Of a DNA stretch of 64,000 nt, positions 5,486-63,024 are shown piece after piece. The notes under the pieces were generated by a model that did no database searches, was not told the origin of the DNA, and saw nothing but the letters and a program-made list of their open reading frames with translations. Every line of letters starts with the position of its first letter. Within the stretch, counting starts at the first letter, position 1. The DNA comes from Nocardia vinacea. GTDB taxonomy: Bacteria; Actinomycetota; Actinomycetes; Mycobacteriales; Mycobacteriaceae. The position numbers and the translations under genes are program-made. Location of the stretch: assembly GCF_035920345.1 (NCBI RefSeq), contig NZ_CP109149.1:3100001-3164000 (forward strand). The letters run 5' to 3'.

Positions 5486-5832
5486 GACGGAATTAGTTCC
5501 CGGAATCTAATAAGGGTGCCCTGAGTTGAACGGGCCGATGACCTGCACGGGAGCGCCTTTCCCGCGACGTTCGGATGCAACACGTTCGCCACCTGCGGGT
5601 CTCGTGCCACGGCCGGCCCGGGCACCCAACGAAATTACGAGTGCGATTTAGGCCACACCTCGGTGACGGAAATCCGTCAGCGCACCGTGACCACCTTCAT
5701 CTGCACCTGATAGCGGGGTCGATTCGAACTTCCGGGGCCACGCCTGCGCTTGGGTCCGAACGTAGCGCGACCTGCCCCGCGGTCGGTTCCGCGGGCACCG
5801 GATACGCCGGTGGTATCGGCTACGCTGACCGC
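5486..5832. other. Divergent suf/mptB intergenic region
   Basis: About 350 bases without a gene between sufR and mptB. It holds the suf promoter side (TAGATT at 5509-5504 on minus) and the leaderless mptB promoter at its right end. Open frames across it on plus are an upstream extension of mptB and have no family resemblance. I see no other structured element. Confidence 0.6.
5821..5826 (+). promoter_or_regulatory. -10 box of a leaderless mptB promoter
   Basis: TACGCT lies 6 bases before the GTG at 5833, the spacing expected when transcription begins at the start codon. There is no ribosome-binding site before this GTG. It is the main argument for choosing 5833 over upstream starts. Confidence 0.6.
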
Positions 5833-7575
5833 GTGATGTCAGGCGAACACGGCGAACCAGGTGTCGAACGCAGCCGGTCGACCACCCTGATTCGCCTGCG
5901 TCGGACCGCGCCCATCAGCACCGCCGTTGCGCTGGGGCGCCGGATCATCGGTCTGGATGTCCCGCCCGACCACACCGTCGGCGACACCCTGCACATCAAC
6001 GAACCCGAAGCCGCCGAACTCAACCCGCAGGAGACCGCACAACTGCGTCGCGTCCGTCTCCTGGGCGCGACGGGTGCGGTCATGATGGCCATCGGCGCGC
6101 TCGGTCTCGGCGCCCAGCCCACGCTGCAGAATCCGACCTACGGCAAGGCGATTCTCGGGCTGCCCGCGCGCGTGCACAATTCGGGACTGGCGACGACCAT
6201 GGTCGGCACGGTCATCGTCATGTTGGCCTGGCTGCTGCTCGGCCGATTCGCACTCGGCTTGCAGTCCAACCGCATTCGCCGCATCAGCCGATCACAACTC
6301 GACCGCACACTGCTGCTGTGGATCATCCCGCTGTCGGTCGCACCGCCGATGTTCAGCCAGGATGTCTATTCCTATCTGGCCCAGGGTGAGATCGCGGCGA
6401 GCGGACTCGATCCCTATGACGTCGGCCCGGTACAGGGACTCGGCCAGGACCATATTCTGACGCGCAGCGTCCCCAATATCTGGCAGAATTCGCCCGCGCC
6501 ATACGGCCCCCTCTCGATTTGGCTGGGCAAGGGCATCGCCGAAATCGTCGGCGACAATATGCTCGCCGGAGTGCTGCTGCACCGAATGCTGGCGTTGCTC
6601 GGCGTGGCCTGCATCGTTTGGGCACTGCCGCGACTGGCACAGCGCTGTCGGGTATCGCCGGTGGCCGCATTGTGGCTCGGCGCCGTGAACCCACTGGTGA
6701 TATTCCACCTGGTATCCGGTGTACACAACGAGGCCATGATGCTCGGCCTGATGCTGGTCGGATTGGAATATTGTCTGGCGGCCCTGAGCAATATCGGACC
6801 GATGCGTGGACACACACTCGTGCTGCTCTTATCGGGCACCACCCTGATAGCGCTGTCCGCCATGGTCAAGATTCCGTCGATGCTGGCACTGGCATTCGTG
6901 TGGATGGCATTGAGCCGAAAATGGGGCGGTGATTGGCGTGCCGTGCTCAGATCCGCGCTATTCCTCGGCTGCGTCACCGGTACCGTCATGCTCGCGGTAT
7001 GCCTGGGCAGCGGTCTCGGTTTCGGCTGGATAGACACCCTGACCATGGCCAACTCGGTGCGCAGCTGGATGTCGCTACCCACCGCGCTCGGGGTCGTCAC
7101 CGGATTCGGCGGCGTTCTACTGGGATTGGGCGACCACACCACCGCCCTGTTGAGCATCACCCGACCGATCGCGGCGCTCGCGGCCTCGCTGATCGTGGTG
7201 CGGCTGATGGTGGCCACCTGGCGCGGACGGCTGCATCCGGTCGGTGCGCTCGGCGTCGCCTTCGGCGCGGTCGTCCTGCTGTTCCCGGTGGTGCAGCCTT
7301 GGTATCTGCTCTGGGGCATCGTCCCGCTGGCGGCGTGGGCCAGCCGACCCGCCTTCCGGGTCCCGGCCACGATCGCCTCGGCGGCGATCAGCGTCATGCT
7401 CATGCCTTCCGGCAGCGAAATCCAGCCTTTCGTCCTTATCTATGCGGCCTGCATCACCATCCTCACCTGCACGCTGATGATCCTCGCCACCCGCAAGTCG
7501 CTGCCGTGGCGGCTACACCACCTCGGCGCCGACACCGCGCCCACCGCCGCCGGTCCTTCCGGACCGCAGAGTTGA
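5833..7575 (+). CDS. mptB: MptB-type alpha-1,6-mannopyranosyltransferase
   Basis: Polyprenyl-phosphomannose-dependent GT-C glycosyltransferase that builds the lipomannan/lipoarabinomannan core at the membrane. It has 580 aa from GTG 5833 (ATG at 5836 is the alternative). There are more than ten predicted membrane segments. The GT-C acidic motif lies in the first large loop (FSQDVYSYLAQGEIAASGLDPYDV), followed by SPAPYGPLSIWLGKGI. The neighbours match M. tuberculosis, where I recall Rv1459c (MptB) as divergent from sufR and followed by an ABC exporter. Length and position both fit MptB rather than the related MptA. Confidence 0.9.
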   Translation: MMSGEHGEPGVERSRSTTLIRLRRTAPISTAVALGRRIIGLDVPPDHTVGDTLHINEPEAAELNPQETAQLRRVRLLGATGAVMMAIGALGLGAQPTLQNPTYGKAILGLPARVHNSGLATTMVGTVIVMLAWLLLGRFALGLQSNRIRRISRSQLDRTLLLWIIPLSVAPPMFSQDVYSYLAQGEIAASGLDPYDVGPVQGLGQDHILTRSVPNIWQNSPAPYGPLSIWLGKGIAEIVGDNMLAGVLLHRMLALLGVACIVWALPRLAQRCRVSPVAALWLGAVNPLVIFHLVSGVHNEAMMLGLMLVGLEYCLAALSNIGPMRGHTLVLLLSGTTLIALSAMVKIPSMLALAFVWMALSRKWGGDWRAVLRSALFLGCVTGTVMLAVCLGSGLGFGWIDTLTMANSVRSWMSLPTALGVVTGFGGVLLGLGDHTTALLSITRPIAALAASLIVVRLMVATWRGRLHPVGALGVAFGAVVLLFPVVQPWYLLWGIVPLAAWASRPAFRVPATIASAAISVMLMPSGSEIQPFVLIYAACITILTCTLMILATRKSLPWRLHHLGADTAPTAAGPSGPQS

Positions 7576-7629
7576 CGAGACAGGGGTGTCGTCCGGGTCA
7601 CATCCGTCGACGGCTTACGGTGTGACACC

Positions 7630-7707
7630 GTGAGGGAGCGAAGCGAGCGAACAATGGGCACAGCACCCTTGGACGCGACGGAGCCGAGCACCGAGGCGCG
7701 ATGGTGA
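7630..7707 (+). CDS. 25-codon spacer ORF coupled to the ABC ATPase start (ERSERTM type)
   Basis: GTG-initiated ORF, peptide beginning VRERSERTMGTAPLD and ending in TEARW. Its TGA (7705-7707) overlaps the GTG at 7704 and lies within five bases of the ATG at 7701, so ribosomes finishing here could restart on the exporter gene. The DNA GAGCGAAGCGAGCGAAC is closely repeated in a second such ORF at 61405-61485. The upstream ribosome-binding site is weak. It may be a dispersed repeat that supplies a coupling leader rather than a functional peptide. Confidence 0.45.
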   Translation: MRERSERTMGTAPLDATEPSTEARW

Positions 7708-8636
7708 CCGCAGCCTCGGAACCCGCCGTCTGTATCGACGGCGTCGTCAAACGTTACGGCGAGACCACCGCCGTCGCCGGGATCAGCTTCGCGGTCGAAC
7801 GGGCACAGGTGCTGGCCCTGCTCGGCCCGAACGGCGCGGGCAAGACCACGACGGTCGAAATGTGCGAGGGGTTCAAAACCCCGGATGCCGGGTCGGTCCG
7901 GGTCCTCGGACTCGATCCGATCGCCGACTCCGACCGGTTGCGGCCGCGCATCGGCGTCATGCTGCAGGGCGGTGGCGCGTACCCGGGTGCGCGCGCGGGC
8001 GAGATGCTCGATCTGGTCGCCGCCTACTCGGCCGATCCGCTCGATCCCGAGTGGTTGCTGAAAACCCTTGGCCTGCAGGACAACCGACGCACTCCGTACC
8101 GGCGGCTGTCCGGCGGCCAGCAGCAGCGGCTCGCCCTGGCCTGCGCACTGGTCGGGAAGCCGGAGATCGTCTTCCTCGACGAACCGACCGCGGGCCTGGA
8201 CGCGCAGGCCCGGCTCATCGTGTGGGAGCTGATCGACGCGCTGCGCCGTGACGGGGTCACGGTGCTGCTCACCACGCACATGATGGACGAGGCCGAGCAA
8301 CTGGCCGACCAACTGGTGATCATCGATCACGGACAGATCGTCGCCTCCGGAACACCCGCCGAGGTCACCGCACAGGGCGCGGCCGGTCAACTGCGCTTCA
8401 CCGCCCCGCCGAAACTCGATCTGCGGCTGCTGAAAACCGCTCTGCCGGAAGGCTTCTCGCCGCGCGAGACGATGCCGGGACAGTATCTGGTCGAGGGTGA
8501 GATCGATCCGCAGGTACTGGCGACGGTGACCGCGTGGTGTGCGCAGCAGAATGTGCTGGCCACCGATATCCGAATCGATCAGCGTCGCCTCGAGGACGTC
8601 TTCCTGGAACTCACCGGACGGGACCTACGCGGATGA
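7701..8636 (+). CDS. ABC exporter ATP-binding protein next to MptB
   Basis: ATPase of a two-component exporter whose membrane half is the next gene. It has 311 aa from ATG 7701 (GTG 7704 equally possible). Walker A GPNGAGKT lies at 42-49, LSGGQ at 136-140, Walker B IVFLDEP at 156-162 and the H-loop in LLTTHMMDEAEQL. The C-terminal domain (about 220-311) is of the kind found in DrrA/CcmA-like drug and polymer exporters. It sits between mptB and its permease as in M. tuberculosis Rv1458c. The position suggests export of a cell-envelope lipid or glycan, but the substrate cannot be told from sequence. Confidence 0.88.
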   Translation: MVTAASEPAVCIDGVVKRYGETTAVAGISFAVERAQVLALLGPNGAGKTTTVEMCEGFKTPDAGSVRVLGLDPIADSDRLRPRIGVMLQGGGAYPGARAGEMLDLVAAYSADPLDPEWLLKTLGLQDNRRTPYRRLSGGQQQRLALACALVGKPEIVFLDEPTAGLDAQARLIVWELIDALRRDGVTVLLTTHMMDEAEQLADQLVIIDHGQIVASGTPAEVTAQGAAGQLRFTAPPKLDLRLLKTALPEGFSPRETMPGQYLVEGEIDPQVLATVTAWCAQQNVLATDIRIDQRRLEDVFLELTGRDLRG

Positions 8637-60934: not shown

Positions 60935-61519
<585 letters not shown>

Positions 61520-62764
61520 TCACTGGGCGGTCTCGCCGAGATCGAGTTCATCCAGCCCGATCAGGTCGTGCCCCATCCGGTCCCGCTTGGTGCGCAGGTA
61601 CCGCAGGTTCTCGGCGTTGGCGCGCAACGGCATCGGCACCCGCTCGGTGATCTTCAGCCCGTAGCCGTCCAGTCCGACTCGCTTGGCCGGATTGTTGGTG
61701 AGCAGGCGCATCGACCGAATCCCGAGATCCACCAGTATCTGTGCGCCGGTGCCGTAGTCGCGGGCGTCGGCGGGCAGACCGAGCTGCAGATTCGCGTCGA
61801 CCGTGTCGTGGCCCGAATCCTGCAGCTGGTATGCCTGCAGCTTGTGCATCAGCCCGATGCCGCGCCCCTCGTGTCCGCGCATGTAGAGCACCACACCGCG
61901 CCCCTCCTGGGCCACCATCTCCAGTGCGGCGTCCAGCTGCGGACCACAATCGCAGCGCAGCGAACCGAAGACATCACCGGTGAGGCATTCGGAATGCACC
62001 CGCACCAGCACATCGTCGCCGTCATCGATATCGCCGCGCACCAGCGCGACATGTTCGACATCGTCGTAAATGCTCTGATAGCCGACGGCCTTGAATTCGC
62101 CGTGCGCCGTTGGGATCCTGGCCTCGGCGACCCGAATGACCTGCTTCTCGTGCTTGCGCCGCCAGGCGATCATTTCCGCGATGGAGATCAGCGCCAAGTT
62201 GTGCTCGTCGGCGAAGACGCGCAGTTCCTCGGTGCGGGCCATATGGCCCTCGTCCTTCTGGCTGACGATCTCGCAGATGACACCGGCGGGCTGCAATCCA
62301 GCCATCCGCGCCAGATCGACCGCGGCCTCGGTGTGCCCGGGACGACGCAGCACGCCGCCCTCCTTGGCGCGCAACGGAACCACGTGACCGGGCCGGGTCA
62401 GATCGTCGGCCTTGGCGTTCGGATCGGCGAGTAGTCGCATGGTGGTGGCACGGTCGGCGCCGGAGATACCGGTGGTGATGCCCTCTCTGGCATCGACCGA
62501 AACTGTGTAGGCGGTGCCGTGCTTGTCCTGGTTCTGCGCGTACATCGGCGGCAGGCCGAGCCGATCGCAGTCCTCACCCGTGAGCGGCACACAGATATAA
62601 CCCGAGGTGTAGCGAATCATGAAGGCGACCAGCTCGGGGGTCGCCTTTTCCGCCGCGAAGATGAGGTCGCCCTCGTTCTCACGGTCCTCGTCGTCGACGA
62701 CGACGACCGCCTTACCGGCAGCGATATCGGCGACTGCGCGCTCGATGGTGTCGAACCTGGTCAC
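61520..62764 (-). CDS. ribBA: Bifunctional 3,4-DHBP synthase / GTP cyclohydrolase II
   Basis: 414 aa. The N-terminal RibB half has [10 protein letters not shown] and the RibA half has the zinc cysteines in [19 protein letters not shown] plus [10 protein letters not shown]. It makes both precursors of riboflavin. GTG 62764 gives [15 protein letters not shown], the family N-terminus, with GGAG ten bases upstream; the ATG at 62800 is less likely. Confidence 0.95.
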
Positions 62765-63024
62765 GTCTGTTGTGCTCCATCTCGAAATAGGTGCCCCCAT
62801 ACAGTACTGTGCTCAACCTGCCGCACCTGCGGCGCGGCGTGTTCGCGGCCCCCTGCTGTCTCGCGTCCGAGCGGTCGAGACATACGACTGCGCCGTATGC
62901 GCTTCAGCCACTCGGCTGTGTTCGGTGGCAGCGCCTTCGGCGCGGCCGCGAGCCGGGCCGCGAACGGTCGCTCGCAAAACTCGCTCCGTGGTGGCCGCCG
63001 GGGCGCGAGCGGCAAGTTCAGCAC
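62761..63024 (-). other. Spacer between ribE and ribBA, with an open frame and hairpins
   Basis: An 87-codon frame from GTG 63024 fills the gap and its TGA overlaps the ribBA GTG (GTGA), as the ERSERTM spacer does for ribH. The text RSEFCERPFAARLAAAPKAL has no family I know. Small perfect stems lie at 62881-62899 and 62905-62918. A -10-like TACTGT at 62806-62801 could drive ribBA. It may be coupling leader, repeat or chance. Confidence 0.3.

Follow-up and report, generated by a model that had tools for sequence, protein, structure and literature searches.

The window, by which we mean the whole stretch of 64,000 nucleotides analysed (positions 3,100,001-3,164,000 of the one 10.36 Mb contig searched as the genome), contains an ABC transporter ATPase gene and a ribH gene, each directly preceded by the small leader ORF that the earlier note had described (Table 1). 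Both ORFs are present, at 7630-7707 (+) and 61405-61485 (-), and their peptides have ERSERTM in common, that of the first reading VRERSERTMGTAPLDATEPSTEARW*. The window holds exactly two occurrences of the shared DNA core, GAGCGMAGCGAGCGAAC, one in each leader ORF, and at both copies the leader stop overlaps the next start as an NTGA, again in agreement with that description. The start of the ATPase gene is most likely GTG 7704-7706 rather than the ATG at 7701, because 22 empty orthologous loci open with GTGA at this place; with GTGA 7704-7707 as the right boundary, copy 1 is 74 bp long and in frame. About 10 bases 5' of the copy 1 leader GTG lies TACGGT (within 7614-7629), which is conserved in front of the GTG in most empty ABC loci. 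This hexamer may be the -10 box of a leaderless transcript; across the family, leaderless starts are no general rule, as just 10 of 85 copies have TANNNT shortly 5' of the left NTG. At ribH, we infer from the sequence that GGAAAGGA acts as a Shine-Dalgarno-like site for the copy 2 leader, and the similar GGAAAGG or GAAAGG precedes the ATG in many empty ribH loci.

Table 1. Features at the two element copies in the window
Feature	Position	Strand	Remarks
Upstream ORF	5575..7575	+	666 aa; 54 bases between its end and copy 1
Element copy 1	7630..7703	+	74 bp; begins with the left GTGA and stops just short of the right GTGA; right arm shortened
Leader ORF, copy 1	7630..7707	+	25 codons; TGA 7705-7707 overlaps GTG start 7704-7706
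ABC transporter ATPase gene	7704..8636	+	Pfam PF00005; start placed from relatives
ribH (6,7-dimethyl-8-ribityllumazine synthase)	60935..61408	-	Pfam PF00885
Right ATGA, copy 2	61405..61408	-	leader stop TGA and ribH start ATG
Leader ORF, copy 2	61405..61485	-	26 codons; stop inside ATGA 61408-61405
Element copy 2	61409..61485	-	77 bp, the canonical length
GGAAAGGA, Shine-Dalgarno-like site 5' of copy 2 leader start	61491..61498	-	placed from sequence and relatives
ribBA-like gene, upstream of copy 2	61520..62800	-	Pfam PF00926 and PF00925

A repeat family of about 77 bases

Both window ORFs are copies of a repeat of about 77 bases that has more than 100 copies in this Nocardia genome. The left-arm core gave 31 exact and 27 one-mismatch matches genome-wide against 1 for a reversed control pattern, a wider left-arm pattern 89 against 0, and a right-arm pattern 118 against 0. 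The 189 places listed were examined as 78 stretches, 18 of the 118 right-arm places not being among them, and a profile built from 35 seeds picked for NTGA at both ends recovered at least 124 copies; as this count is confined to the 78 stretches, the true number in the genome is probably above 124. No autonomous long version was noticed among the profile hits in these stretches. A complete copy spans NTGA to NTGA, usually 77 or 80 bp apart. Its left arm (GAGCGNAGCGAGCGAAC) is followed by a hairpin that varies among copies and then by a right arm, in which a tetramer resembles a Shine-Dalgarno sequence. The left NTGA supplies the start codon of the ORF and the right NTGA its stop, the latter NTGA being also where the downstream gene starts. 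In an alignment of 95 distinct copies (A1) both arms are constant and the centre varies in sequence and length.

NTGA was present at both recognised ends in 98 of the 124 hits. The remaining 26 include window copy 1, because the parser missed the GTGA at 7704; it therefore stands outside the 98-copy counts and is in frame after hand correction. Single copies number 76 and those in tandem arrays 22, and the NTGA-NTGA distance is 77 in 35 copies, 80 in 34 and another value in 29. The earlier note had held that a dispersed element of this kind should show a frame and overlap preference, and the distance equals 2 modulo 3 (in frame) in 87 of 98 copies and the ORF is intact in 85 of 98; as inheritance may account for the length 77 and likewise for the length 80, these 98 copies are not independent. 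Copies of other lengths are in frame in 18 of 29 cases (binomial P 0.0014 versus one third), these also including kin, so that neither frame nor end statistics count independent events. Of 98 copies, 96 have a Shine-Dalgarno-like tetramer ahead of the right NTG, compared with 30 of 85 for the left NTG, a pattern that would fit termination followed by restart. A subfamily opening GTGACCGAGCG...GAGGGAA was seen in the studied genome (L036, L041, L046, L063, L084, L093, L100), most of its copies having GTGAC at the end, which could reflect duplication of, or a preference for, the base that follows RTGA.

Sequence comparison suggests that the centre of the element likely forms a structure-conserved hairpin. 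Swapping halves between copies weakened the fold (own mean -7.05 versus permuted -5.57 kcal/mol, 0 of 5000 as low), as it did for 22 representatives (-6.46 versus -5.22 kcal/mol, 0 of 5000 as low). The effect was smaller in a control region (columns 1-26; -3.66 versus -3.00, 0 of 2000), and the value for columns 59-100 was reached by 37 of 2000; since the control region also beats its shuffles, relatedness contributes to the fold signal. Within length classes, a stem of at least 4 pairs occurred in 58 of 104 central regions, chimeras giving a mean of 39.1 and a maximum of 49 in 500 trials; 122 of 153 regions were parsed for this stem test, some only in part.

Occupied starts, empty sites and distribution

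We called a frame coding-like if it had at least 50 codons and a third-position GC excess. Among 85 array-terminal copies, the right NTG opens such a frame in 61 (0 and 2 of 85 in the shifted frames), which bears out the overlap with a downstream start beyond the two cases of the earlier note, and the left TGA terminates one in 36 of 85 (shifted 4 and 2). Simple starts are thus the site of some copies, while others occupy junctions where a stop and a start overlap. The downstream genes are functionally unrelated by Pfam; seven others are trpB-, hemA-, thioredoxin-reductase-, dut-, der-, sdhA- and purB-like, these names being our reading of the families. A left arm without a right arm is fused in frame to long ORFs at four loci of the studied genome (L062, L064, L101, L045) and in relatives (L174, L179, L195, L257). 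In L174, L179 and L195 the lone left arm precedes sdhA-like sequence with N-termini MSERSER..., and the matching sdhA-like gene of the studied genome has a complete element in front. The fused arms look like products of decay of the element into an N-terminal extension.

Searches of 40 Nocardia genomes returned 30 loci for each of the two window genes. The ABC-ATPase start is filled in 8 of 30 (the studied genome, G009, G023, G017, G026, G039, G038 and, in tandem, G005) and empty with a GTGA start in 22; the element versions at this start differ among lineages, which suggests that it was occupied repeatedly. At ribH the element is found in the studied genome and G009, and the 28 of 30 loci that are not filled all open ATGAGYGG, one of them (L135) with another repeat-like sequence upstream. 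The trpB-like junction holds a copy in the studied genome, and the one in Nocardia anaemiae is empty; flank identity is 93-95% and GTGA alone is common to both ends. Orthologous empty sites carry a single RTGA start, and among the matches listed tandem number differs at three sites between the studied genome and N. vinacea or N. pseudovaccinii. Flanks in the studied genome match named Nocardia loci at up to about 99% identity, from which its genus is taken. With at least 124 family members in the sampled genome parts and empty orthologous sites, the earlier proposal of a dispersed element proved largely right. The further idea that it joins operons found no support, as copies occupy the starts of pre-existing genes, whether in operons or not. 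Among single copies, which are related to one another, the two NTGAs agree in their first base in 59 of 76 (shuffled mean 36.5, sd 4.1) and in the base that follows in 64 of 76 (mean 54.2, sd 2.1), with weaker signals alongside. Such correlation between the ends resembles a short duplication of the target site, start codon included, an appearance that tetranucleotide ends together with selection could mimic.

At least one exact left arm was found in 119 of 150 Nocardia genomes, the studied genome having 65 and the next highest 47, 45 and 41. A one-mismatch pattern occurred in 19 of 151 genomes of the family, with 0-3 per genome outside Nocardia. In named genomes, a 33-base pattern matched 52 stretches (42 Nocardia, 3 Pseudonocardia, 1 Nonomuraea and 6 MAG); 46 of its 58 occurrences were parsed with both ends, 43 of these 46 in frame. 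The 3 copies from two Pseudonocardia species are all complete, at 77 bp, and none of the Nonomuraea and MAG matches was parsed as complete. Plasmid or phage cargo was set aside, as blastn with copy 2 (84 bases, E limits 0.001 and 0.01) gave no match among 72,556 records of plasmids and 50,697 of phages. Four loci from another genus of the family (L184, L185, L186, L187) contain a distinct conserved repeat, GTGAGCGAGCGAAGCGAGTGATTGTCGCGGGTGGCCCCGCGTGCTCTGG..., with the look of a left arm and no clear right arm.

Comparison with MIRUs and other small repeats

The insertion site of mycobacterial MIRUs is called a DTGA-type start/stop site. According to a 2025 review, MIRUs appear to be mobile and insert at start codons, with an ORF coupled to the gene at -4 spacing (PMC12548453, citing Supply 1997), and another paper states that those of the senX3-regX3 region are confined to M. 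leprae and the M. tuberculosis complex (PMC4213456). The Nocardia family shares with MIRUs the 77-bp size, the occurrence as short repeats both interspersed and in tandem (76 single, 22 in arrays), insertion at start codons (NTGA ends and single-RTGA empty sites) and an ORF in gene direction with a 4-nt overlap with the downstream start (85 of 98 Nocardia ORFs intact). It differs in belonging to another genus and in having no significant sequence similarity to MIRUs: the Nocardia profile scored at best 3.0 bits (E 0.11) against 14 MIRUs, unrelated places in the same loci reaching 8.5 bits, and a MIRU profile at best 6.5 bits against Nocardia copies (E 0.06, not significant). Sequence homology to mycobacterial MIRUs was accordingly not detectable, neither profile direction giving significant similarity. 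In a sample of 151 genomes, a mycobacterial core pattern matched 6, which all belong to a single other genus, and none of the 10 Nocardia genomes included. Since the rule is the same without significant similarity, we call the family MIRU-like and do not file it as MIRU.

The mycobacterial MIRU elements that we extracted, with NTGA at both ends by pattern selection, were in frame in 13 of 15 cases. Their end positions 0, 4 and 5 agree in 10, 13 and 11 of the 15 (two from one array), levels reached by 8, 0 and 2 of 2000 shuffles, and position 8 is also somewhat high (9 of 15; 32 of 2000 shuffles); the agreement is consistent with a 6-bp duplication. Two loci taken to be from Mycobacterium (L206, L209) hold longer MIRU forms with a central inserted palindrome, GTGGGGGCACCTCCCGCTTGCGGGGGAG, that parallels the central hairpin of the Nocardia family.

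REP, BOX and MITE-type small repeats are short and dispersed, with a hairpin and without a transposase gene. All this is true of the Nocardia element, which differs in being fully spanned by an ORF, in having start and stop codons as its ends and in its directly repeated arms. Operon leader peptides and uORFs are small ORFs directly 5' of a gene that overlap its start. The Nocardia ORF likewise adjoins a gene and overlaps its start, but it recurs more than 100 times before unrelated genes and has empty alleles in relatives. A known structured RNA family was considered and set aside, as 5 loci compared with Rfam at an E limit of 0.1 yielded no hit. At the level of titles and abstracts, we found no literature describing this repeat in Nocardia.

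A probable mobile element at RTGA start codons

Very probably, these repeats form a family of mobile elements, short and seemingly non-autonomous, which occupy RTGA start codons in sense orientation and would be nearly transparent to translation. The sequence shows that the left NTGA gives the small ORF its start codon at the former gene start, and that the ORF stops in the right NTGA, which now serves as the gene's start. Ribosomes that formerly started on the gene would instead translate a peptide of about 25 residues, stop at the NTGA and restart on the gene, aided by the GAGG/GGAG-type motif of the right arm. Because its ORF ends on the next start, the element could enter operons without obviously breaking them, and being nearly transparent to translation it could survive in core operons. 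The leader peptide itself is probably unimportant, since its sequence varies.

How the site is chosen is a separate matter. Insertion might have no preference, the survivors being sense insertions at RTGA starts, in which case the rule would be silent on the enzyme; this falls just short of being probable and is compatible with the mobile-element explanation, from which it differs only in the choice of site. Selection does act, as the ORF is lost more often where no frame lies downstream: it is intact in 68 of the 72 copies that an open frame follows, compared with 7 of the 13 others (Fisher P 0.0006). Against selection as the only cause, few complete copies lie off open frames, a frame of at least 60 codons following 72 of 85 copies, while of the remaining RTGA sites of these stretches 2389 of 5302 have one; random insertion might be expected to leave neutral intergenic copies. 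Weighing against the mobile-element explanation, 13 of 85 array-terminal copies are without an open 60-codon frame downstream, 7 of them keeping an intact ORF, and 26 of the 124 hits have no recognised NTGA end. More tentatively, and with rather less expectation of being right, the family may be a second, independently evolved one, non-homologous to MIRUs, which an enzyme that reads the structure-conserved hairpin (as ssDNA or RNA) would actively direct to RTGA starts instead of selection merely retaining it there, right-arm loss leaving N-terminal extensions.

We consider it very unlikely that the copies are regulatory leader peptides of the attenuator or uORF type, retained because some signal is sensed through their translation to control the gene that follows. 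A small ORF before each gene, the Shine-Dalgarno-like right end and the hairpin would suit such a role, as would the higher mRNA that is reported to accompany longer MIRU-VNTR tracts before fpg1 in M. tuberculosis (PMC2734929). However, the downstream genes share no function, most of the relatives compared lack the element at each of the two window sites, the middle of the peptide shows free sequence variation and the 5 loci compared with Rfam gave no match. Very unlikely, too, is a MITE-like element mobilised through terminal inverted repeats by a DDE transposase: the family is short and dispersed, has no gene of its own and shows correlated ends, but its arms are alike in direct orientation (in 94 of 95 copies the direct score exceeds the inverted one) and no terminal inverted repeats were found, the inverted arm score equalling that of shuffled arms (4.2 and 4.3), which disfavours this kind of transposon. 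Chance similarity in a GC-rich genome, which the mere two copies in the window might have allowed as the source of the shared ORF core, has a negligible probability and was ruled out by the 58 genome-wide left-arm matches against 1 for the control, together with 118 against 0 for the right arm and 89 against 0 for the wider left-arm pattern.

For annotation, the mobile-element explanation means that a gene start or N-terminus next to such an element is easy to place wrongly, as probably happened at 7701/7704. The rule stated for mycobacterial MIRUs is extended by these repeats to Nocardia (119 of 150 genomes) and to two Pseudonocardia species. What moves the repeats, how they reach start codons and how core operons tolerate them are questions made directly testable by the high copy number and by the filled and empty sites in related species.
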